From contig NZ_WOCA01000001.1 in NCBI RefSeq assembly GCF_009728145.1, forward strand, positions 434,001 through 498,000: 64,000 nt of DNA, in the 5' to 3' direction. The notes under the pieces were generated by a model. The model saw only the letters and a list, made by a program, of their open reading frames with translations. It was not told the origin of the DNA and searched no databases. Both the position numbers and the translations under genes were made by a program. Below, piece after piece: positions 3,411 through 21,770 of the stretch (position 1 is its first letter; each line of letters opens with the position of its first letter). Source of the stretch: Ornithinibacillus caprae (lineage in GTDB: Bacteria > Bacillota > Bacilli > Bacillales > Amphibacillaceae).

Positions 3411-4028
3411 GTGGCTGAAATTGTTTATTTAAGAATGAAAAAAAATCTTGAATTAGACCGTATGCAAGAGCTTCAGTTAAAACATATCGCCTTCATTACA
3501 ACGCAATCTAAACGAAAGAGAGAATTAGAAAATGCACGAATTTATCGTATAACTGAAAAAGACCAAGACTTAGTTGTAATAGATAGTTTTTTAGTAATAG
3601 ATCACTTAAATCGCTTATATCCAAACTTGGAAATTCAGTTAATTGGACCTACTCATACAATTGTAAGAATCTATAGGAGAAAAAAACTACCTTCTACACT
3701 CATTGCTAGTGTCGTTTGGATTCTACTGTTTATAGGCACTGCGATGACTATTATGAACTTTCATTATGATGTAAGCATGCAGGAAGTCCAACAAAAACTA
3801 CATTTCTTACTAACTGGAGAAGAAAATGAGTATCCATTATGGATACAGATCCCATACTCCATTGGACTTGGATTAGGAATGTTGTTATTTTTTAACCATT
3901 GGTTTAACAAACGCTTTAATGAAGAACCCAGTCCTCTAGAAGTGGAAATATTTAATTACCAGCAAGCCCTCGATCAATATATTAGTCATCATGAGAATAA
4001 GCTAAATGATCCAGACCATACTCGTTAA
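3411..4028 (+). CDS. spoVAA: Stage V sporulation protein SpoVAA
   Basis: A membrane component of the SpoVA system that loads and releases calcium-dipicolinate across the spore inner membrane. The 205-residue protein has a soluble N-terminal half and two predicted membrane segments (near LIASVVWILLFIGTA and YSIGLGLGMLLFF). The frame is open back to 3330, but that start lies inside the sigF terminator loop. The GTG at 3411 has AAAGGTGG nine bases upstream and gives the family length (about 206), so it is chosen. It overlaps spoVAB by 23 bp. Confidence 0.88.
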   Translation: MAEIVYLRMKKNLELDRMQELQLKHIAFITTQSKRKRELENARIYRITEKDQDLVVIDSFLVIDHLNRLYPNLEIQLIGPTHTIVRIYRRKKLPSTLIASVVWILLFIGTAMTIMNFHYDVSMQEVQQKLHFLLTGEENEYPLWIQIPYSIGLGLGMLLFFNHWFNKRFNEEPSPLEVEIFNYQQALDQYISHHENKLNDPDHTR

Positions 4029-4434
4029 TATAATTCAAATTTTAATAGGGTTTGCGGGAGGGCTTGCAGTCGGTAGTGGGTTTGTTGCCTTTTTAACCGT
4101 CTTGGGGATTATTCCAAGATTAATTCAGATTGCGAAAGGGAATCATTTAATCAAGGTATTAATTGGGTGTGTAATAGGAGGTTCCATCTTTGGGACTTAT
4201 TTGTCGTTTACAGGGGTATCATGGAATCAACCGATCATCCTTCTTGTTATTTGGGGATTATTTCACGGGATTTTTAACGGTATGCTGGCTGCTGCTCTTA
4301 CTGAGGTATTAAATGTCTTCCCAATTATAACAAAACGGATTGGGCTTGAGCAGTATTTATTATGGTTATTAATGGCAGTAGTTTTTGGGAAAATAGCAGG
4401 ATCACTATTCCAATGGCTTGTCCTAGTAAAATAA
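4006..4434 (+). CDS. spoVAB: Stage V sporulation protein SpoVAB
   Basis: A small integral membrane protein (142 residues, four to five hydrophobic segments) of the SpoVA dipicolinate channel system. The GFAGGLAVGSGFVAFLTVLG start is the family signature. The ATG lies inside the spoVAA coding end and has no obvious Shine-Dalgarno sequence, so expression probably depends on coupling to spoVAA. In B. subtilis it is followed by spoVAC, spoVAD and spoVAE. Here the next gene is spoVAF. Confidence 0.87.
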   Translation: MIQTILVNIIQILIGFAGGLAVGSGFVAFLTVLGIIPRLIQIAKGNHLIKVLIGCVIGGSIFGTYLSFTGVSWNQPIILLVIWGLFHGIFNGMLAAALTEVLNVFPIITKRIGLEQYLLWLLMAVVFGKIAGSLFQWLVLVK

Positions 4435-4473
4435 CTGGATACAGTATCAAAAATGTATGAACAATTGGAGTGA

Positions 4474-5946
4474 ATGAATTTGAGTAAAAGTCCAATATCT
4501 GCGAAGATCGATGATACATTGGCATATATGAAAGAAAGAGTTGGCGTCGAAACCTCTTATGACGTTGGCTATCGAGAAGTAACTATATTAAAAAAGAGAA
4601 TTCAATTATATTATCTTACAGGGTTAGTTGATAGCTTGATTGTTCAGGAATTGATTAAAGAACTTGTCAATATGAATGATCACGAAACTAATAAACGAAA
4701 AGTTCCAGAAATTATTGAAAATAGACTCATCCATCAACAAGTAGAGACAGTTAAAACTATGGATGAAGCAGTAGATCAAATCTTATCAGGACTTATCGTT
4801 GTATTTATTGATGGGGAACGCTATGCGAAAGTAATCGATACAAGAAGTTATCCAGGTAGATCACCCGAAGAACCGGATACAGAGAGGGTAGTACGTGGCT
4901 CTCGGGACGGGTTCACAGAAAACATTGTGGAAAATACCGCTTTAACTAGACGTCGAATTCGTGATACACGATTACGACATGAAATGTTAAAAGTTGGAGA
5001 AAGGTCCAAGACGGATGTTTGTATAAGTTATGTAAAGGATATTGCAGATGAAGGGCTTGTTCAGTTAATAAAAGATAAGATTAATGATATTGAAATCGAC
5101 GGTATTTCAATGGCCGAAAAGACACTGGAAGAATATATCGTGGAACGCAACTGGAATCCATTTCCATTAGTGCGATATACCGAAAGGCCTGACGTTGCTG
5201 CAAGCCATTTATTAGAAGGTCATGTATTAATAATGGTTGATACATCGCCGAGTGTCATTATTTTACCAACCACTTATTTCCATCATGTACAACATGCAGA
5301 GGAACATCGACAAGTACCAATGATAGGGACGTTTATTCGGTGGACTAGATTCTTGGCAATTTTTGCATCTTTGTTTTTATTACCATTATGGCTTTTGTTT
5401 GTTATGGATCCGAGTTTATTACCGAAGGCATTATCATTTATCGGGCCAAATGAAGAAGGAAACGTTCCAGTAGTAATTCAAATCATATTAGGCGTGATTG
5501 GAATTGAGTTCTTAAGGATGGCAGCAATTCATACGCCTACAGCATTATCAACAGCTATGGGTTTAATTGCTGCAGTTTTGATTGGACAAATAGCAATTGA
5601 TGTTGGAATGTTCAGCCCCGAGGTGATTTTATATATTTCAATAAGTGCAATTGGTTCTTATGTTACTCCAAGTTATGAATTAAGTGTTGCTAATAAAATT
5701 GCCAACCTATTTTTAGTAATTGCCACTGCAGTATTTGGCCTAATAGGCTTCATCATTAGCTTTACAGTATTTATCTTGTTCTTAGCAAGTATACGTTCCA
5801 TAAGGACACCATATTTATGGCCGTTCATTCCCTTCAATGCCACAGCATTATTTAACATTCTATTTCGAGTTCCAGTACCATTTACAAACAGCAGGCCAAG
5901 CATTGTTCATCCGAAAAATAATTATCGTCAACCAGCTAATAAATAA
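4474..5946 (+). CDS. spoVAF: Spore germination protein SpoVAF (GerA-family)
   Basis: A 490-residue homologue of the GerA-type A subunits. It has a soluble N-terminal region (about residues 1-290), an FIRWTRFLAIFASLFLLPLW first membrane segment and five to six helices in the C-terminal half, ending in a polar tail. In B. subtilis SpoVAF sits in the spore inner membrane and speeds germination. ATG 4474 is only three bases from GGAG. TTG 4480 would have better spacing, so the true start may be two codons later. It directly follows spoVAB and precedes a terminator and lysA. Confidence 0.9.
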   Translation: MNLSKSPISAKIDDTLAYMKERVGVETSYDVGYREVTILKKRIQLYYLTGLVDSLIVQELIKELVNMNDHETNKRKVPEIIENRLIHQQVETVKTMDEAVDQILSGLIVVFIDGERYAKVIDTRSYPGRSPEEPDTERVVRGSRDGFTENIVENTALTRRRIRDTRLRHEMLKVGERSKTDVCISYVKDIADEGLVQLIKDKINDIEIDGISMAEKTLEEYIVERNWNPFPLVRYTERPDVAASHLLEGHVLIMVDTSPSVIILPTTYFHHVQHAEEHRQVPMIGTFIRWTRFLAIFASLFLLPLWLLFVMDPSLLPKALSFIGPNEEGNVPVVIQIILGVIGIEFLRMAAIHTPTALSTAMGLIAAVLIGQIAIDVGMFSPEVILYISISAIGSYVTPSYELSVANKIANLFLVIATAVFGLIGFIISFTVFILFLASIRSIRTPYLWPFIPFNATALFNILFRVPVPFTNSRPSIVHPKNNYRQPANK

Positions 5947-5971
5947 TGAAATCACCGAAAATATTATACCG

Positions 5972-6008
5972 AAAACCTCGTTCAAGTGTGATTAAACGGG
6001 GTTTTTTC
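5972..6008 (+). terminator. Terminator after spoVAF
   Basis: AAAACCTCGTT pairs with AACGGGGTTTT (11 bp including one T-G pair) and is followed by a T run. It ends the spoVA transcript before lysA. Confidence 0.85.
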
Positions 6009-6178
6009 TTTTGTTTTCTTATTTGTTATGATAAAGTATGTATGATTTAGACAATATGCGAGAAATTTTGCATGCTTTAAAAAGTTTCATTTTTCCCTTG
6101 TATAATTGGGAATAGAGTATTTACTAGTAATAGTTAATTCATAAATGAAAGTTTTTAACAAGATGGAGGATTAAAGAA

Positions 6179-7486
6179 ATGAAAATAGATGATCATCCTT
6201 TTCAAATTAATGAAAAAGGCCATTTAGAAATTGGTGGATTGGATACTATTGAGTTAGCCGAAAAATATGGAACACCTCTATATGTTTATGATGTTTCTAT
6301 GATTCGTGAAAATTGCCGAGCATTTGTCCAAACGTTTCAAGAACTAGGAGTGCGTGCGCAGGTAGCCTATGCTAGTAAAGCATTTTCTTCTATTGCTATT
6401 TTACAGGTCATGAAACAGGAAGGATTATCGGTTGACGTTGTTTCTGAAGGTGAGCTGTATACCGCATTACAAGCAGGTATCCCTGCAGGTAAGATCCATT
6501 TACATGGTAATAATAAAAGTATTGATGAGCTAGCATTGGCAATCAAAAATGATATTGGGTGTATTGTAGTCGATAACTTCTATGAAATTGATTTATTAGA
6601 GAAGTTATTAGCTGAGCATAACAAAGAAATCGATGTATTGATACGTGTTACCCCAGGGATCAATTCCAAAACACATCAATATATTATGACGGGAAATGAA
6701 GACTCTAAATTTGGCTTTAACATGCACAATGGTCAAGCAGAAAAAGCATTTCAACAATTACAAAATCATGATCGAATTCGTTTTAAAGGCTTACATTGCC
6801 ATATCGGATCACAAATCTTTGAAACTGACCGTTTTATAAAGGCTGTTGATATCTTATTTAAGGAATTAGCTGAATGGAAAAATCAATATAACTATACACC
6901 AGAAGTATTAAATTTTGGTGGAGGCTTTGGAATTAAATATACGAATGAAGACTCTCCAATACCATTAAACCTATATGTTGAAGAATTAGTTAACTCGATA
7001 ACTTTCCATATACAAAAATTAAACATGCCTATGCCTGAAATTTGGATTGAACCTGGAAGATCTATTGTTGGAAATGCTGGAATAACATTGTATACAGTTG
7101 GCTCGACAAAGGAAATTCCCGGGGTACGTAATTATATTGCGGTGGATGGTGGAATGACTGATAATTTACGACCTGCACTATATCAAGCGAAATATCATGG
7201 GGTTATAGCTAATAAAGCGGGACTACCAAATACAAAGGAAGTATCTGTTGCAGGAAAGTGCTGTGAATCTGGGGATATGCTTATTTGGGATTTGGCCACT
7301 CCAGAAATTGATCATGGAGATATCCTTGCTGTATTCTCAACTGGTGCTTATGGTTATTCAATGGCAAATAATTATAATCGTTTTTCCAAAGCAGCGGTTG
7401 TGTTTGTTGAAGATGAAGTAGATAAGCTTATTGTTAAACGCGAGACGTATAAGGATATTTTAAGAAACGATTTATCCTATGAGTAA
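6179..7486 (+). CDS. lysA: Diaminopimelate decarboxylase
   Basis: Catalyses the last step of lysine synthesis, meso-diaminopimelate to L-lysine plus CO2, using PLP (fold-type III, alanine-racemase-like barrel). Visible hallmarks of the 435-residue protein are AYASKAF with the PLP lysine at about 67, HCHIGSQI, the glycine-rich GGGFGI phosphate site, EPGRSIVGNAG and the CCESGD catalytic motif near the C terminus. The ATG has TGGAGGA eight bases upstream. A TATAAT at 6101-6106 could be its -10 box, but no good -35 is visible. No lysine riboswitch is seen in the leader. Confidence 0.96.
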   Translation: MKIDDHPFQINEKGHLEIGGLDTIELAEKYGTPLYVYDVSMIRENCRAFVQTFQELGVRAQVAYASKAFSSIAILQVMKQEGLSVDVVSEGELYTALQAGIPAGKIHLHGNNKSIDELALAIKNDIGCIVVDNFYEIDLLEKLLAEHNKEIDVLIRVTPGINSKTHQYIMTGNEDSKFGFNMHNGQAEKAFQQLQNHDRIRFKGLHCHIGSQIFETDRFIKAVDILFKELAEWKNQYNYTPEVLNFGGGFGIKYTNEDSPIPLNLYVEELVNSITFHIQKLNMPMPEIWIEPGRSIVGNAGITLYTVGSTKEIPGVRNYIAVDGGMTDNLRPALYQAKYHGVIANKAGLPNTKEVSVAGKCCESGDMLIWDLATPEIDHGDILAVFSTGAYGYSMANNYNRFSKAAVVFVEDEVDKLIVKRETYKDILRNDLSYE

Positions 7487-7586
7487 TTATTCTATTTGAC
7501 TTCCGTCTTTAAAATTTAAATCATCCATGATAACATGAAATAAATGTAAACTTATTAGAACACAATTAGTTAGGAGATTGAAAAAG

Positions 7587-14115: not shown

Positions 14116-14182
14116 AATTGTTGAAGAATAGACAAATTTTACATCGTGTCTAAGTGGTATACTTGAGCAGGGAGTGATGTGT

Positions 14183-14755
14183 ATGAGTCTGGATGAAAGA
14201 AAGTCCAATAAGATAAAGAAAAAACGAAATCGTTTTATTTTTAGAACGGTCATCCTTGCTGTTATGCTTGTTGCTATTATCTATGCACTAGTTTCCAATA
14301 TGGATAAGGATAATACGATATATCGAGTCGGTGATCAAGCACCAGATTTTCAATTGGAACAAATTAATCATAATAACGAAATAGAAACGATTCGACTAAG
14401 TGATTATGAAGGAAAAGGTGTTATGCTTAACTTTTGGGGAACTTGGTGTCCACCTTGTGAAGCAGAAATGCCATATATGCAGGAACTTTACCCGAAATAT
14501 AAAGAAAAAGGCATTGAAATTATTGCTGTAGATTTAAATGATACAAGACTTAATGTTAAGCAATTTATTGATAAGTACGAACTTACATTTCCAGTTCCTT
14601 TTGACAACAAAGGAGTCGTATCCGATTTATACAAGATTGGACCAATGCCAACAACCTACTTCATTAGCCCTGACGGGGAAATTGTAGAGAAGGTTGAGGG
14701 TGGTTTAACATTAGAAAAGTTAGAGGGGTATTTCCAAGAAATATTACCAGAATAA
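14183..14755 (+). CDS. resA: Thiol-disulfide oxidoreductase ResA
   Basis: A membrane-anchored thioredoxin-like protein that reduces the haem-binding cysteines of apocytochrome c on the outer face of the membrane. The 190-residue protein has a basic N terminus, one membrane helix (about residues 22-38) and the active site WCPPC with cysteines at 89 and 92. Upstream GTG 14174 and ATG 14177 are in frame. The GGGAG at 14170-14174 places ATG 14183 at ideal spacing. It is the first gene of the resABC set. Confidence 0.93.
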   Translation: MSLDERKSNKIKKKRNRFIFRTVILAVMLVAIIYALVSNMDKDNTIYRVGDQAPDFQLEQINHNNEIETIRLSDYEGKGVMLNFWGTWCPPCEAEMPYMQELYPKYKEKGIEIIAVDLNDTRLNVKQFIDKYELTFPVPFDNKGVVSDLYKIGPMPTTYFISPDGEIVEKVEGGLTLEKLEGYFQEILPE

Positions 14756-14835
14756 GAATTGATCTTTTGAACATAAAAGCGGTCGGTTAGTAGTGTTCTC
14801 CTAGAAACAATTAAACAAACCAGTGAGGGATATTA

Positions 14836-16557
14836 ATGAAGAACATAAAGTGTGATTGTGGTCATGTGAATCCGGAAGGGACAGTCCTTTGCGAATCATG
14901 TGGGAAACCAATAGAAGGAAACCAACATATTGACGGCAATGATAATAAAAGATTATTAAATATGCGCTATGATGGTACAGCTAGACGCTCACAAACCTAT
15001 AACAAGTCCATTGTAGATAAAATATGGAGTTTTTTCTCCTCTGTTAAAGTTGGAGTATGGTTAATCGTTATAGCGCTTGTCGCTTCAGCTGTTGGTACTA
15101 TTTTTCCACAAGAACAGTACATACCTATAGATGCCGTTTCCCGTGATCCTGCCGTATATTATCAGGACGCATACGGGATTTTAGGGCAAATCTATTATCA
15201 ACTAGGATTTCATAATCTATTTAGTTCCTGGTGGTTTTTGATATTAATAGCACTAATTGGAGTATCTTTAGTAATTTGTAGCTTGGACAGGTTCGTCCCA
15301 CTATATAAAGCATTAAAAAAGCAAAAGCCACAACGACATCATTCTTTTTTAAGCAGACAACGTCTATTTAGTGAAACAGAAGAAGTTACAGAAGAAGAAA
15401 AACAAAAAGTGATTAATAGCTTGAAAGCTCAACGGTATAAAATAAATGAGGAAAATGGACATGTGCTAGCTGAAAAAGGAAGGTTTTCACGCTGGGGTCC
15501 ATATGTAAACCATATAGGCTTAATTATAATTTTATTAGCTGCATTACTTCGTTCAACACCGTTATTTTATACAAATGAATATTTATGGGTTCGTGAAGGC
15601 GAACAAAAGGTAATTCCTGGAACAAAAAGTGAATATTTTATTGAAAATAAAGGGTTCATCTTAGATTTATATGATGAAAATGACGATCGCTTTAAGGCTG
15701 CACTTGAGAAACAAGGAACCATGGTGCCGAGTAATTTCCAGACAAATGCGATTGTCTATAAACAATCAGAAGATGTGGTAACTGGAGCAGAAGCTCAATT
15801 AGAAAAAGTGACCGAAGATGAAATTCGAATGAATCACCCACTTGAATTCGAAGGTTATAAAATTTATCAATCTGGCTACCAATTAAATGAAGTAAATCAA
15901 ATGACATTTACTATACAGGAAATAGAAAATGAAGATGGTGAACCGTTGGCAGAGTTTACCATTGATGTCACTGATCCAAAAGCGGAATATGAATTAGATA
16001 ATGGTTTTAAAGTTGAGATTAATGAATTTTTCCCTGACTTCTATTTAGACAGTACAGGTCCTAAAACAGAAACACAATTTCCTAGAAATCCAACGTTTAT
16101 TTTCAAGTTATATCCTCCAAACTCGGATGAATCAGAAACAAGTTTCGTTGGTGATGTTATAAGTGCTGCAGAAGCTTTGGGAATAAATACCGAAGCGGTA
16201 GAGCTTAACCCTATGGGAGAAGTATTAGGACAGTTTGCAACGAATCTTGATGCTACAGGTGAAAATGAGTATAAAATTAGTATTCAAGACATGGATTTTC
16301 ATCGTGTAAGTGGACTATCCATACGTAAAGATCACTCACTTCCATTCTTTGGAGTAGGTGCACTGATCTTTATGATCGGTGTCGTTCAAGGTATGTATTG
16401 GCAACATCGTAGAGTTTGGATTCGACCTACAGAAAAAGGTCTAATGCTTGCTGCGCATACAAATAAAAATTGGTTTGGAATTAAAAAAGAAATCGAAAAT
16501 TCCATTGAAAATACGAATATTAAAATGGTTGATGACCAGCAGGAATTGGATGAATAA
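14836..16557 (+). CDS. resB: Cytochrome c biogenesis protein ResB
   Basis: Part of the System II (Ccs) haem export/attachment complex with ResC. The 573-residue protein opens with a four-cysteine zinc-ribbon-like segment (CDCGH ... CESCG, residues 5-22). It has two early membrane helices ([20 protein letters not shown] and a [17 protein letters not shown] segment), a third near residue 230, a large outer domain, and a final helix near 515. It is somewhat longer than the B. subtilis protein (542). resC follows 11 bp later. Confidence 0.94.
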
Positions 16558-16568
16558 GGAGGATGTAT

Positions 16569-17768
16569 ATGGGTAATCTAATAAGCTTTAGTAGTACAAT
16601 GCTTTACACAGCGTTTATACTATATTTAATTGCTACTTTCTTCTTTGGCTTTACGATCAGGGATAAACATACATCAACGAGTAAAGGCTCCAAAGGCGTA
16701 GCAGCCAAGATAGGAATTAGCTTAACTATCGCTGGGTTTATTGCTCAATTGACGTATTTTATTACAAGATGGATTGCCAGTGGACACGCACCAGTAAGTA
16801 ATCTATTCGAGTTTATGACGTTTTTCGGCATGACCATTGTACTGGCGTTTATCTTTATCTATTTTATTTATAAACTTACTGTACTTGGACTGTTTGCTTT
16901 GCCGGTAGCTTTAATTATTATTGCTTATGCAAGTATGTTTCCAACAGAAGTATCACCATTAGTACCATCGTTACAAAGCCACTGGCTATATATTCATGTA
17001 ACAACAGTATCCCTGGGGCAAGGGATATTGGCTATCAGTTTTGTAACAGGTGTCATCTATTTAATTAAACATATTGATCAAAGTCAATTAAACTGGAGAA
17101 ATTTTAGTTTAGAAGCAGTACTATATTCATTAGTTTTATTTATAGGGTTTGTTGTTATTACAACAACGTTTAATACAATGGACTATAGTGCGTCATTTGA
17201 ATACAAGAACGGTTCTAAAACATATACAACTGAATACAACTTACCAGCACTCGCAGGTCCAAATGAAGGGATTTTACTAACAGAAGGTGTTATGGAACCA
17301 TGGTTTGAAACTCCAGCATGGATGCACGGAGCAGATGCTGGGAAAAAATTTAATACTCTAGTTTGGTCCTTTATAACAGGTACAATTATCTATGGATTGG
17401 TGTTATTAATACTAAGAAAACGTATTGGTGCAGCTATTCAACCACTCCTTAAAAACGTCAAATTAGACTTATTAGATGAAATAACGTATCGTGCTGTTGC
17501 TATCGGATTTCCGGTATTTACATTAGGTGGATTAATATTTGCAGCTATCTGGGCACAAGAAGCCTGGGGTAGATTCTGGGGCTGGGATCCAAAAGAAGTA
17601 TGGGCTTTAATTACTTGGTTCTTCTATGCCGCATTTTTACACCTACGACTTTCTCGCGGATGGCATGGCGAGAAGTCTGCTTGGTTAGCAGTTGGAGGTT
17701 TTGCTATAATAATGTTTAACCTTATTGCGGTAAATCTTATTTTAGCTGGACTTCATTCCTACGCATAA
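16569..17768 (+). CDS. resC: Cytochrome c biogenesis protein ResC
   Basis: A CcsA/ResC haem handling protein (399 residues) with about eight membrane helices. It carries the tryptophan-rich haem-binding motif [18 protein letters not shown] near residue 335, with conserved histidines in flanking helices. Two in-frame ATGs (16563, 16569) exist; AAGGAGG at 16556-16562 requires the second. It works with ResB to present haem to cytochromes c such as QcrC further downstream. A terminator separates resABC from resDE. Confidence 0.95.
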
Positions 17769-17824
17769 AGATATCTTCCATCAATGTGGGGCATACACCA
17801 GTAATGTGCAGGATAAAATACTGT

Positions 17825-17864
17825 AAAAACATGACATCATTAACAATTAAGATGTCGTGTTTTT
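17825..17864 (+). terminator. Terminator between resC and resD
   Basis: AAAAACATGACATC pairs with GATGTCGTGTTTTT (one G-T pair), ending in five T. resDE therefore probably has its own promoter. Confidence 0.85.
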
Positions 17865-17924
17865 CTTATACTTATCGTATTGAATCGTATATACTATAGT
17901 TATGATGGTTAAAGGGGGATATAA

Positions 17925-18641
17925 ATGGATGCAAATGCTAAAATACTAGTTGTTGATGATGAAGAAAGAATCCGTAGATTAATTCGAATGTATTTAGAGC
18001 GAGAGGATTTTACGATTGAAGAGGCAGATAATGGAACTGATGCCTTAGAAATGGCGTTAAACAATGATTATGATGTTATATTATTAGATATAATGATGCC
18101 CGAAATGGATGGAATCGAAGTTTGTCAAGAGCTTAGAAAAGAGAAAAACACTCCAGTAGTAATGTTAACAGCAAAGGGGGAAGAGGCTAATCGTGTTCAA
18201 GGATTTGAAGTGGGAACAGATGATTACATTGTAAAGCCTTTTAGTCCAAGAGAAGTTGTTCTTCGAGTTAAAGCAATTCTTAGAAGATCAACTACTGCCT
18301 CTTTTAACGAAGCGGATGCACAAACCAAAAACCTACTTGTATTTCCTCATTTAACAATTGATCATGATGCGCATCGTGTTACGGCTGATGGGAAAGAGGT
18401 AAGTTTAACACCAAAAGAATATGAGCTTCTTTGCTTTTTAGCAAAAGCTCCAGATAAGGTCTTTAATCGGGAGCATCTATTAAAAGAAGTGTGGCAATAT
18501 GAATTTTTTGGTGATTTACGTACAGTAGATACACATGTAAAACGTTTGCGTGAAAAGCTAAATACGGTTTCTAAAGAAGCTGCCAAGATGATTGTGACGG
18601 TCTGGGGAGTTGGATATAAATTTGAGGTAGATGATGTCTAA
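17925..18641 (+). CDS. resD: Response regulator ResD
   Basis: An OmpR/PhoB-type response regulator controlling aerobic and anaerobic respiration genes in Bacillus. The receiver domain (residues 1-125) has the acidic pocket DDEER at 11-15, the phospho-acceptor Asp55 in VILLDIMMPEMDG, and the conserved Lys in IVKPFSPRE. The C-terminal winged helix (about 140-235) contains TPKEYELLCFL and RTVDTHVKRLREKL. The ATG has AAAGGGGGA upstream. Its stop overlaps the resE start by one base. Confidence 0.95.
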   Translation: MDANAKILVVDDEERIRRLIRMYLEREDFTIEEADNGTDALEMALNNDYDVILLDIMMPEMDGIEVCQELRKEKNTPVVMLTAKGEEANRVQGFEVGTDDYIVKPFSPREVVLRVKAILRRSTTASFNEADAQTKNLLVFPHLTIDHDAHRVTADGKEVSLTPKEYELLCFLAKAPDKVFNREHLLKEVWQYEFFGDLRTVDTHVKRLREKLNTVSKEAAKMIVTVWGVGYKFEVDDV

Positions 18642-20407
18642 TGTTCTGGCGTAGTGTGGTAGGGAAACTAGCAATAACCATATTTTTGCTAGTTTCTTTT
18701 GTATTATTTATTTTAACGATTTTATTACTAGAGTTCTTTGAAAATTTTCATATTCAAGAAGCAGAAAAAGATATGATGCAAACTGCTACAAAAGTTTCAG
18801 TTATGGTGGAAAATCATGAAGATCGATCATTAATATATGAAACAACGGAACGTGTAAAGGATCCTGCTAGTCAAGTTGTGATATCATTTCCGGATGATTT
18901 GATATGGTTCTCTGATACTAGCGAACCTATATTAAGCTATATGAATGAGAAGTGGCTCGAAGAACAAGGATATTTGCAGCAGGTATTAACGAATAACCAT
19001 AGTATTAGTGAACAAATTGATATTCCCGAGAACGAGCAAGGGGCAATGGTGGTAGGTACACCCATTGAAAATGAGCAAGCAGCTGTATTTGTTTATCAAT
19101 CCTTAGAGGTCGTTGATCAAACAAAGGCAGAAACAACTAAAATTATTCTACTCGCAGCTGGTATTGCTACTGTATTAACAATAATCTTTGCTTTCTTTTT
19201 ATCAACTAGGATCACTTCTCCATTAATCAAAATGAGAGAAGCAGCTTTAGATTTAACAAGGGGAGAATTTAATACAAAGGTTCCGATTCTAACCTACGAT
19301 GAAATTGGTGAATTAGCAATGGCCTTTAACCGAATGGGTAGGCAATTGAAATTCCATATAAATGCACTGCATCAGGAAAAAGAACAATTATCTAGTATTG
19401 TTAGTTCAATGGCTGATGGTGTTGTAACCTTGAGTAGAAATGGAGAAATGATTGTAACAAATCCTCCAGCAGAACGATTTTTGGAAGATTGGTATTTTGA
19501 GAACAATACGCCAATAACTGACAAGGATCATAAACTCCCTAGTGAGCTAAATAGTATTTTACAGGAAGTTATTCAAGGAGAAAAAGAAATACTAGAGGAA
19601 ATCAGTTTACAGGGAAGAAGTTATGTAATGATAATGACTCCTCTATATGATCAATCGTATGTACGCGGAGCAGTAGCAGTTATTCGGGACATGACAGAAG
19701 AAAGACGTTTAGATAAATTACGAAAAGATTTTATTGCAAATGTTTCTCATGAATTGAGAACGCCAATTTCCATGTTACAGGGCTATAGTGAAGCTATTGT
19801 AGATGATATAGCAGAATCGAAAGAAGAGAAAAATGAATTAGCGCAAATAATATATGAGGAGTCATTAAGACTTAGTCGGTTAGTGAACGAATTACTTGAT
19901 CTTGCACGGATGGAAGCAGGACATATTCAATTAAATAAAGAAACGATCGATGTCGATCCATATATCAATCGCATTATTCGAAAATTCAAAGGTGTTGCAG
20001 AAGAAAATCAAGTAAATCTAGAAATTGATAAAAATTTAATATTTCCTACGGTGAATTGTGATCCAGATCGTATCGAACAAGTCTTTACGAATTTAATTGA
20101 TAATGCCATCCGTCATACGAGTAAGGGTGGGTATGTTAAAGTCATAGTTGAGAATAAAAATGCTGAGTTAAGCGTTTCAATTGAAGATAGTGGTAGTGGA
20201 ATTCCAGAAGAAGATCTACCATTTGTGTTTGAAAGATTTTATAAGGCTGATAAATCTCGTACTCGAAATGATAAGCAAAAGGGGACTGGCCTAGGACTTG
20301 CTATTGTCAAAAATATTATTGAGGCTCACAAAGGGAAGATAACAGTTAATAGTAAAGTTAACATTGGTACCACATTTAATTTTATCGTTCCGAACAACCA
20401 AGAGTAG
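18641..20407 (+). CDS. resE: Sensor histidine kinase ResE
   Basis: The partner kinase of ResD (588 residues). Order of parts: membrane helix (about 8-32), extracytoplasmic sensor region, second membrane helix (about 168-188), HAMP (190-245), PAS (about 250-350), HisKA with His370 in FIANVSHELRTP, and HATPase_c with N, G1 and G2 boxes (LIDNAIRHT, DSGSGIP, GTGLGLAIV). It starts one base inside the resD stop, so the two are co-translated. The signal sensed by the family is tied to respiratory redox state and NO. Confidence 0.95.
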   Translation: MFWRSVVGKLAITIFLLVSFVLFILTILLLEFFENFHIQEAEKDMMQTATKVSVMVENHEDRSLIYETTERVKDPASQVVISFPDDLIWFSDTSEPILSYMNEKWLEEQGYLQQVLTNNHSISEQIDIPENEQGAMVVGTPIENEQAAVFVYQSLEVVDQTKAETTKIILLAAGIATVLTIIFAFFLSTRITSPLIKMREAALDLTRGEFNTKVPILTYDEIGELAMAFNRMGRQLKFHINALHQEKEQLSSIVSSMADGVVTLSRNGEMIVTNPPAERFLEDWYFENNTPITDKDHKLPSELNSILQEVIQGEKEILEEISLQGRSYVMIMTPLYDQSYVRGAVAVIRDMTEERRLDKLRKDFIANVSHELRTPISMLQGYSEAIVDDIAESKEEKNELAQIIYEESLRLSRLVNELLDLARMEAGHIQLNKETIDVDPYINRIIRKFKGVAEENQVNLEIDKNLIFPTVNCDPDRIEQVFTNLIDNAIRHTSKGGYVKVIVENKNAELSVSIEDSGSGIPEEDLPFVFERFYKADKSRTRNDKQKGTGLGLAIVKNIIEAHKGKITVNSKVNIGTTFNFIVPNNQE

Positions 20408-20460: not shown

Positions 20461-20616
20461 GGAATTGGTGTTTTTCATAATAGGGAATCCAGTGAAATTC
20501 TGGAACTGTCCTCGCAACTGTAAGTGATATACGAAATAAGCATTGCCACTGTATGTGTTCATACGGGAAGGGCTTAAAGTAGGTGAAGATCACAAGTCAG
20601 TAGACCTGCCAATTTC
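20461..20616 (+). ncRNA. Cobalamin (B12) riboswitch
   Basis: All hallmarks of the adenosylcobalamin riboswitch can be read in order: a TTGGTG start of P1/P2, GGGAA followed by CCAGTG, ACTGTCCTCGCAACTGTAAG (the B12 box region), GCCACTG, GGGAAGG, and the 3' block AAGTCAGTAGACCTGCC. The arms GGAATTGG (20461-20468) and CCAATTTC (20609-20616) close P1. A terminator at 20704 gives the off state. It precedes a lipoprotein and an ECF S-component gene. Confidence 0.93.
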
Positions 20617-20703
20617 TAAATGTGTCAATGATCCCGAGGATAGGACTATTGAGACGACCGAACAACATAAAAATTTATTTTTATGCATTTGTGTCGATTG
20701 TCC

Positions 20704-20737
20704 AAAAACTAACTCTATCATTGAGTTAGTTTTTTTA
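20704..20737 (+). terminator. Riboswitch expression platform terminator
   Basis: AAAAACTAACTC and GAGTTAGTTTTT form a perfect 12-bp stem with a seven-base loop and T run. It lies between the B12 aptamer and the lipoprotein gene, so it is the likely regulated attenuator. Confidence 0.88.
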
Positions 20738-20781
20738 TTAGTACTAGAATCCTCAAATATACAAAAATAGGAGGATGCTAC

Positions 20782-21201
20782 ATGAGTAAATGGTATGTAA
20801 AATTATTTGCATTACTAATTATAATTGGTCTTGTAACAGGTTGTGGTGCAGATGGTTCAGATGACGATGCTACTACCGATTCAGCAAAGAATGAGGAAAA
20901 TAATGTATCTGAAGTAGAAGAATCAGTGGTAATAGTTCTTTCTAAGGATGAAGGGGAAGAAGTTATCGCTGAAGAAGAAATATCAATTAATGAAGGTGAC
21001 ATTTTACTTGATGTCATGAAGGAACACTTTGATGTTGAGGAAGAAGGTGGCTTCATTACCTCCATTGAAGGCATTGCTCCTGAAGAAAATGAGCAAAAGG
21101 CTTGGATGTATTTTGTAGATGGAGAGATGTCATCTGTTGGAGCGAATGAGTACGAATTAACTCCAGGAGAAGAAATTACCTTTGATTTTCAAGCGTGGTA
21201 A
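20782..21201 (+). CDS. DUF4430 lipoprotein, predicted cobalamin-binding
   Basis: A 139-residue secreted lipoprotein. The signal peptide ends in the lipobox LVTGC (Cys21), followed by an acidic linker (about 23-45) and one DUF4430 domain (about 48-139) ending in WMYFVDGEMSSVGANEYEL and a GEEITFDFQAW strand. DUF4430 is related to the C-terminal domain of intrinsic factor/transcobalamin proteins. Being under a B12 riboswitch and 5 bp before an ECF S component, it is inferred to capture cobalamin or a corrinoid outside the membrane. RBS AGGAGG is seven bases upstream. Confidence 0.82.
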   Translation: MSKWYVKLFALLIIIGLVTGCGADGSDDDATTDSAKNEENNVSEVEESVVIVLSKDEGEEVIAEEEISINEGDILLDVMKEHFDVEEEGGFITSIEGIAPEENEQKAWMYFVDGEMSSVGANEYELTPGEEITFDFQAW

Positions 21202-21206
21202 TCTAG

Positions 21207-21719
21207 GTGAATACGTATAAGTTAACCTTAATCGCTCTATTAGCAGCTATTGCAGTTGTTGGGAGGATCACCTTATCATTTATACCTAATATACAACCTG
21301 TTACAGCGATGATTATTATTTGTGGAATCTTATTAGGTCCAGTAGCAGCCATATTATTAGCCTTACTGACTACTTTTTTATCAAATATGTTACTTGGTAT
21401 GGGAATATGGACTATATGGCAAATTGTTTCATGGTCTATAATTGGAATTGCAAGTGGTGTACTAGGGAATTTTTTTAGAAATATTCCGATATATATTATT
21501 GTTATCTTTTCCATTATAAGTGGATATTTTTATGGATTCATTATCTCATTAACGCAATATCAAATTACTGGGAAGTTTCTCCCTTACTATTTAGCTGGTT
21601 TAGCATTTGACACGAACCATGCTATTGGCAATGCATTATTTATTATTTTATTTTATCCAATATTTACGTATTTCTTAAAAAGATACTCAAAAGATCGGTT
21701 CAACATACAAAGAAGCTAA
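21207..21719 (+). CDS. cbrT: ECF transporter S component, predicted cobalamin-specific (CbrT-like)
   Basis: A 170-residue integral membrane protein with five to six hydrophobic helices and the S-component layout: an N-terminal LIALLAAIAVVGR with Ala/Gly-rich helix 1 for EcfT contact, a GILLGPVAAILLALLTTFLS helix, and a GFIISL segment. No ATPase or T component is encoded nearby, so it probably shares the general EcfA/EcfA'/EcfT module. The B12 riboswitch suggests cobalamin as substrate; CbrT is the known ECF S component for B12. The GTG start has only a weak ribosome site, so translation may depend on the preceding gene. Confidence 0.78.
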   Translation: MNTYKLTLIALLAAIAVVGRITLSFIPNIQPVTAMIIICGILLGPVAAILLALLTTFLSNMLLGMGIWTIWQIVSWSIIGIASGVLGNFFRNIPIYIIVIFSIISGYFYGFIISLTQYQITGKFLPYYLAGLAFDTNHAIGNALFIILFYPIFTYFLKRYSKDRFNIQRS

Positions 21720-21741: not shown

Positions 21742-21770
21742 AAAAATCCGAACTATTAGTTCGGATTTTT
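21742..21770 (+). terminator. Terminator after the B12 uptake pair
   Basis: AAAAATCCGAACT and AGTTCGGATTTTT are perfect 13-bp arms around ATT. It could act in both directions, serving fer on the other strand as well. The core AAATCCGAAC is also used by the terminator at 60781. Confidence 0.9.

Follow-up and report, generated by a model that had tools for sequence, protein, structure and literature searches.

Two genes that lie behind a cobalamin riboswitch, one for a lipoprotein with a DUF4430 domain and one for an ECF S component, raise the question of whether an ECF transporter can have an extracellular partner that catches its vitamin, as ECF transporters are usually contrasted with importers that use binding lipoproteins. 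Below we report the analysis of this unit in the window, by which we mean the whole 64-kb stretch of DNA analysed, together with its host genome and its relatives in other genomes and on plasmids. On the whole, we consider it likely that the unit imports cobalamin, probably together with cobinamide and other corrinoids, and that the lipoprotein captures the ligand and hands it to an S component of the CbrT kind.

The riboswitch-led gene pair

The features of the unit are collected in Table 1. The covariance model of the cobalamin riboswitch is matched over its full length (positions 1-189 of 189), and the complete riboswitch with terminator that had been proposed for this place is confirmed, with a start 12 nt further upstream than originally stated. 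The terminator hairpin has -13 kcal/mol and a z of -4.6, with 0 of 200 shuffles equalling it, and the terminator scan as such found 1 terminator against 0.6 expected. No further RNA family reaches its Rfam gathering score in the window, and the sigma-70 promoter scan found 8 promoters against 8.2 expected. Pfam also bears out that the two genes code for a lipoprotein with one DUF4430 domain and an ECF S component; there are 5 nt between the stop of the former and the latter, which starts with GTG. Directly upstream on the same strand, positions 14174-20407 of the window carry resA/resB/resC-like cytochrome c biogenesis genes and a resD/resE-like two-component pair, all named from reading the proteins.

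Table 1. Positions of the features of the unit in the window
Feature	Position	Strand	Evidence or remark
Cobalamin riboswitch aptamer RF00174	20449..20627	+	106.5 bits vs gathering score 31.5, E 1.1e-25
B12 box, AGTCAGTAGACCTGCC	20595-20610	+	Read from sequence
Intrinsic terminator hairpin, riboswitch expression platform	20704..20734	+	12 pairs, T tail
GGAGG, likely ribosome-binding site of the lipoprotein gene	20770..20774	+	Read from sequence
DUF4430 lipoprotein, proposed corrinoid-capture protein, CbrS-like	20782..21201	+	Lipobox cysteine is residue 21
DUF4430 domain, transcobalamin beta-domain fold	20995..21192	+	Pfam; predicted model
CbrT-like ECF S component, six predicted helices	21207..21719	+	Pfam, PDB sequence search, predicted model
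Hairpin with T-rich 3' arm, possible transcript end	21742..21770	+	By eye; absent from the terminator scan

The S component

The S component is a protein of 170 aa that matches PF12822 with E 5.9e-11. In a search of the PDB, its single sequence finds CbrT (6fnp_A) with E 1.8e-20 and one chance match with E 1.1, while a profile of 39 relatives finds 6fnp CbrT with E 4.3e-36 as the sole match at E<=1, leaving the thiamin, riboflavin, folate, biotin and pantothenate S components of the PDB unmatched at that threshold. A different vitamin as the ligand was considered and rejected, since the profile of relatives matches CbrT alone in the PDB. In addition, the window protein and the CbrT of Lactobacillus delbrueckii have the signature stretches PN.QPVT, SN..LG.GIWT..Q and FD..HA.GN in common. 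The predicted model, with a mean pLDDT of 94.5, shows the six helices of the S fold and aligns to 6fnp_A with Z 11.4 and rmsd 2.8 over 147 residues, other S components having Z 11.1-16.3; CbrT ranks only 19th by Z, with ThiT, RibU and FolT higher, up to 16.3, and Foldseek gives no match for the model at E<=0.001. The fold alone does not single out CbrT, and the family assignment rests on sequence. Among the Pfam models, generic S models and the riboflavin-type PF07155 (36.5 vs 26.7 bits) are over their cut-offs, and the NCBIfam matches to folate, ThiW and riboflavin models are all below theirs. Judged by its specific sequence similarity, the protein is an S component of the CbrT type, and the original prediction overlooked that it is a relative of an already characterised B12 transporter. 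According to Santos et al. (2018, PMC5997447), ECF-CbrT of L. delbrueckii carries both Cbl and Cbi, and CbrT by itself binds Cbl with a nanomolar Kd, so a lipoprotein is not strictly needed there.

The lipoprotein

The lipoprotein has 139 aa and, by motif reading, the lipobox V-T-G-C21, whose cysteine is invariant among 41 aligned lipoprotein sequences. It contains one DUF4430 domain (PF14478, E 1e-21, 77.6 bits vs a cut-off of 23.8), and PF01497 (Peripla_BP_2), the mark of a BtuF-type protein, is absent from it up to E 1. Its linker is acidic and modelled with low confidence; from residue 51 onward the domain model reaches pLDDT 94-97 per ten-residue block. The best structural match of the domain is 3u7z (Z 13.9), a bacterial entry with the title 'putative metal binding protein'; it also matches the TC, HC and IF beta domains (5np4, 4kki, 2pmv) with Z 12.5-13.8, rmsd 2.4-7.8 over 91-99 residues and an identity of 21-25%, the next other fold having Z 7.6. 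Foldseek gives E down to 5.6e-6 for the same model, and by sequence there is a weak match to haptocorrin (E 0.12 with the single sequence, E 0.0026 with a profile). The domain is thus predicted, on its model, to be the beta-domain fold of the cobalamin-binding carriers of the transcobalamin type. These carriers have an alpha6-alpha6 domain and a beta domain in one chain, whereas the lipoprotein has one DUF4430 domain only. A lone beta domain can bind corrinoids: Bloch et al. (PMC5599065) produced human TC-beta by itself and determined its structure with bound cyanocobalamin and with bound cobinamide, and separate expression of the TC domains lowered the affinity, with binding not abolished.

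Co-occurrence of the two proteins

An overall view of the pairing comes from a survey of 249 genomes of the order with the window S protein as query, in which CbrT-like means a similarity to the window protein of E 1.5e-17 or better. The query is matched in 94 of the 249 genomes, one of them (G019) only by a ThiW protein, so that CbrT-like S components occur in 93. DUF4430 is also found in 94 of the 249: all 93 genomes with a CbrT-like S component have it, and one (G053) has DUF4430 only. Fisher's test on the unpruned genome table gives P 6e-67, which overstates the association because the species are related. Among the 98 survey loci, two (L107 and L108) turned out to be weak matches to ThiW proteins and were dropped from the counts, leaving 96 CbrT-like loci; these two have neither DUF4430 nor a match of the riboswitch model R1.

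DUF4430 is present in the fetched flanks of 93 of the 96 loci, and the three misses are L098, cut by a contig end, and L047 and L049, from two genomes of one genus in which the DUF4430 gene is on another contig. RF00174 is absent from both of these genomes in a search with stricter filters, and both genes are nevertheless kept (DUF4430 at L118:2703-3176 in G035 and at G235:C9:115964-116167, the S genes in L047 and L049). The S proteins of L005, L047 and L087 were searched individually against the PDB, and 6fnp alone was matched each time.

Besides the survey, we examined the best 80 of 144 relatives as named loci, a sample that overlaps with the survey by coming partly from the same genomes. 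DUF4430 stands directly upstream of the S component in all 80, with -23 to +8 nt between the ORFs, and a lipobox-like motif occurs in 78. Natural fusions of DUF4430 with an S component are absent from the ORFs of both the survey loci and the named loci. Taken by genomes (93/93), survey loci (93/96) or named loci (80/80), the pairing of lipoprotein and S component put forward for the window is strongly supported, and such a near-constant partnership suggests a vitamin hand-over. In Virgibacillus senegalensis (L149:4579-6814), the pair is duplicated in tandem.

Locus architectures and riboswitch coverage

The survey loci concentrate in two architectures. In the short type, with 55 loci, the DUF4430 lipoprotein is followed by an S component of about 165-230 aa, neither EcfT nor a fused ATPase occurs in the fetched flanks, and a B12 riboswitch is found in 54. 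In the long type, with 35 loci, a large DUF4430 protein, a DUF4430 lipoprotein, EcfT, a fused EcfAA' and an S component of about 220-280 aa stand together; the large protein is present in 34 (missing in L096), EcfT and the fused EcfAA' in all 35, and the riboswitch in 33, one of the two misses (L101) being a stretch that ends inside its first gene. Three loci of one genus (L087, L099, L102) have the reversed gene order. The first-gene protein of L101 (genome G152) has at least 9 DUF4430 domains in an ORF that runs off the stretch, and several of these repeats have identical scores, suggesting a recent repeat expansion. Upstream of two long-type operons there are three and two tandem matches of the B12 riboswitch (L097:1109-2140 and L088:676-1224, respectively).

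Whether all such pairs sit behind B12 riboswitches had been set as a check, and the answer is that most do and some do not. A riboswitch is present within the fetched stretch in 88 of the 96 survey loci, a count that mixes Rfam matches with those of model R1 and includes the weak R1 matches L033, L065-L068, L087 and L103 as well as the RF01482 matches L062 and L063; in L062, L063, L067 and L068 its distance upstream of the lipoprotein gene is 1.3-1.5 kb. Among the named loci, R1 finds it in 67 of 80, three of them weakly, and in the remaining 13 Rfam finds no riboswitch either; 7 of these 13 have the label Oceanobacillus. Among the 21 loci without a riboswitch (8 of 96 and 13 of 80), L098, L101 and L201 are cut off upstream. 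Pairs without a riboswitch by R1 and Rfam are L138, L139, L144, L150, L153, L155, L156, L158, L166, L182, L195 and L198. One of them, L139, is labelled Roseburia, a label that may be wrong; its S component is 61% identical to that of the window.

Plasmids of lactic-acid bacteria and enterococci

With the S protein of E. durans as query, 37 plasmid records are matched, and 36 of them have DUF4430; the remaining one, the E. faecalis plasmid LR962301 (L225), has a CbrT-like S component with no DUF4430 within 5 kb of the S gene. With the window S protein as query, 44 plasmid records are matched, of which 8 are absent from the E. durans set by organism counts, most of them from Lactobacillaceae and with the long-type S component. 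Three of these 8 were examined, from L. kefiri, L. kefiranofaciens and L. brevis; taken at first as candidates for CbrT without DUF4430, they were rejected as such, each carrying DUF4430 proteins. For example, in L. kefiri pDH5 (L219:113-2458) a B12 riboswitch precedes the gene of a 781-aa protein that combines DUF5776 with a C-terminal DUF4430; an EcfT-EcfAA'-S operon runs divergently from this gene.

The genes nrdJ, pduO, DUF4430 and cbrT are together in E. durans, L. plantarum, E. faecalis (where an IS element precedes DUF4430) and L. intestinalis, where the order is nrdJ-DUF4430-cbrT-pduO and the S component matches 6fnp with E 5.9e-63. In E. gilvus the order is queG-DUF4430-cbrT, and in E. 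faecium the S component comes before DUF4430. No B12 riboswitch is found by Rfam in the cassettes L212-L216 and L218. That the pair moves with nrdJ and pduO on enterococcal and lactobacillar plasmids makes it a portable cassette for B12 use. In annotation the idea already exists, as the label 'cobalamin ECF transporter' on the DUF4430 gene of E. durans shows.

B12 genes and transporters of the host genome

The host genome (G000) has three RF00174 riboswitches, located before the unit of the window, an operon on contig 22 and nrd genes on contig 37. The operon on contig 22 (L005:8905-15330) contains a DUF4430 lipoprotein, EcfT, a fused EcfAA' and a CbrT-like S component that has 31% identity to that of the window and matches 6fnp with E 3e-17. 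Its first gene codes for a protein of 696 aa with two DUF4430 domains, a SQHop_cyclase_C-like region (E 5.2e-7) and an LPXTG anchor, and this wall-anchored transcobalamin-like protein of the same riboswitch regulon had been overlooked by the original prediction. A further module on contig 14 matches TIGR04520 with 396.9 bits vs 315, adjoined by a second ATPase and then by a CbiQ/EcfT protein. The description of the window S component as 'lone' holds in that no ECF module is beside it, but it fails for the genome as a whole, which has both a complete ECF operon with another CbrT-like S component and a separate module. An S gene with no EcfA-EcfA'-EcfT module adjoining it, in a genome that has such a module in another place, is the arrangement of group II, and the window S component would use the shared EcfA-EcfA-EcfT module in this style.

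The claimed lack of BtuFCD-type ABC genes stands for the ORFs listed around the unit and directly behind the three B12 riboswitches, where none is found. The host genome has nine FecCD matches, the ninth being a weak one (C7:18866); for the 3 binding proteins and 4 permeases of these systems that were scanned, all 7 best models are of the Fe(3+)-siderophore kind, and the 4 permeases also match BtuC models below the cut-off. A B12 role may belong to one of the FecCD systems.

Among B12-related proteins, the host has NrdJ, IcmF, methylmalonyl-CoA mutase and PduO. CbiC is not found in its genome, so synthesis of the corrin ring is very likely impossible, as far as one marker gene can tell. On contig 37, a B12 riboswitch (L009:3515-3702) precedes nrdE-nrdI-nrdF-like genes of class Ib-like type (3791-7510), named from reading the proteins, which show cross-matches to the NrdJ model. 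Together with NrdJ elsewhere in the genome, this riboswitch is a B12-dependent RNR switch; a B12-independent RNR under a B12 riboswitch in the presence of NrdJ fits a cell living on imported B12. About 740 nt interrupt nrdJ between its RRG and AQM codons (L115:3520-4272, contig 11 at about 371520-372270); by reading, the insert resembles a group I intron with a degraded endonuclease ORF, and it has no Rfam match at the gathering threshold.

Proposed capture and hand-off, and the alternatives

Cobalamin riboswitches of this family allow read-through when cobalamin is low. At low intracellular cobalamin, the riboswitch would let transcription past the terminator, and both proteins would be made. 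The lipoprotein, held outside the membrane by the lipid on C21, would present its single transcobalamin-type beta domain and bind the corrinoid, with an affinity probably weaker than that of a two-domain carrier. It would keep the vitamin at the membrane and hand it to the CbrT-like S component, which would dock on an ECF module, topple and release the vitamin inside; the separate EcfA-EcfA-EcfT module of the genome could serve here. The control element, the gene pair, the predicted folds, the co-occurrence and the genome context are all observations with which a hand-off from the lipoprotein to the S component is compatible. Capture by the former with transfer to CbrT is the most economical reading, with ligand binding by the lipoprotein, the direction of the transfer and the use of the shared ECF module as its presumed steps.

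The main rival to capture is a role of the lipoprotein as an accessory or structural part of CbrT, such as a lid, a chaperone or a tether to the ECF module, with B12 bound by the S component only. The nanomolar binding of Cbl by CbrT alone (PMC5997447) speaks for such a role, and the tight pairing of lipoprotein and S component also fits a subunit. However, the predicted fold of the lipoprotein domain is that of the human TC beta domain, which is itself a binder of CNCbl and Cbi (PMC5599065), and DUF4430 is also found in large surface-type proteins, in 34 of the 35 long-type loci and on the L. kefiri, L. kefiranofaciens and L. brevis plasmids. The large proteins with several DUF4430 copies, up to the at least 9 in L101, favour ligand capture for the domain over a role as a membrane subunit, and we regard the accessory role as unlikely.

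The corrinoid ligand class is well supported. Originally proposed as a cobalamin-class ligand, it has strong support from the CbrT-specific similarity, the riboswitch control, the co-occurrence, the beta-domain fold and the plasmid cassettes, and two further alternatives bear on what exactly is bound. S components of the CblT type import a corrinoid-related part, and the unit might in a similar way import cobinamide, alpha-ribazole or dimethylbenzimidazole in place of intact cobalamin. B12 riboswitches also precede transporters of precursors, and we know of no PDB entry for CblT, so that the PDB profile search cannot separate it. On the other side, the products of the cassette genes nrdJ, pduO and queG work with complete cobalamin or modify it, the L. 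intestinalis genes are ordered as in L. delbrueckii and include an S component very close to 6fnp, and a host without CbiC would have little use for the lower ligand alone. As the closest characterised relative is CbrT, which serves Cbl and Cbi (PMC5997447), we consider the import of such a part improbable. That the ligand of the lipoprotein is a metal or something else, and that its gene is near cbrT through co-regulation only, is suggested by the title of 3u7z, its best structural match; this is highly improbable in view of the near-perfect match of presence and absence with the CbrT-like S component over 249 genomes, even in the two genomes where the genes are unlinked, and of the absence of DUF4430 next to the two ThiW S components that the survey query also picked up.

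Beyond the capture of the vitamin by the lipoprotein, the wall protein with its two DUF4430 domains and alpha-alpha region, the second DUF4430 lipoprotein and the dedicated ECF transporter may form a relay from wall to membrane. A Gram-positive B12 relay of the transcobalamin-like kind, in which a wall carrier and a beta-domain lipoprotein deliver to an ECF S component, has in our view about even chances of being real.

If such a relay is real, one of the bulkiest substrates of ECF transporters has an extracellular binding protein of its own, and the B12 carriers of animals and a bacterial system use one beta-domain module. DUF4430, still 'unknown' by name, gains a concrete proposed function and a tie to the animal carriers, and with the lipoprotein tied to one S family in 93 of 93 sampled genomes, the hand-off is directly testable. 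In annotations of the SEED type, a predicted cobalamin ECF transporter has an additional lipoprotein component, and an earlier prediction of a lipoprotein partner in annotation resources is likely. Among the open-licence PMC papers listed by our searches, we found neither this SEED-like wording ('additional lipoprotein component') nor a paper on the role of the lipoprotein, nor a description of the near-obligate lipoprotein partner, the two architectures and the wall-anchored protein.

Comparison with known systems

B12 riboswitches, CbrT and its transport are already known, and the unit of the window is a further member. Its S component belongs to the same S family as that of ECF-CbrT of L. 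delbrueckii (PDB 6fnp). In Santos et al. (2018, PMC5997447), the L. delbrueckii cluster is given as nrdJ-cbrS-cbrT-pduO, and that text has 0 uses of 'lipoprotein' and 0 of 'riboswitch'. The L. intestinalis cassette has this same order with DUF4430 in the second place, and cbrS would by position be the DUF4430 gene. Unlike the L. delbrueckii cluster, the window has a bare pair under riboswitch control, with nrdJ and pduO not beside it. The human carriers TC, HC and IF have the same beta fold as the lipoprotein is predicted to have, while the window protein consists of one lipid-anchored beta domain and lacks an alpha domain in its chain.

The B12 importer BtuF-BtuCD works by capture outside followed by ATP-driven import, and the unit of the window is alike in its proposed job; however, its lipoprotein is of an unrelated family of binding proteins, and translocation would be by ECF instead of BtuCD. 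Closest at hand is the long operon of the same genome, which has the riboswitch, the DUF4430 lipoprotein and the CbrT-like S component in common with the window unit and differs from it by its own EcfT, fused EcfAA' and wall-anchored 696-aa protein.
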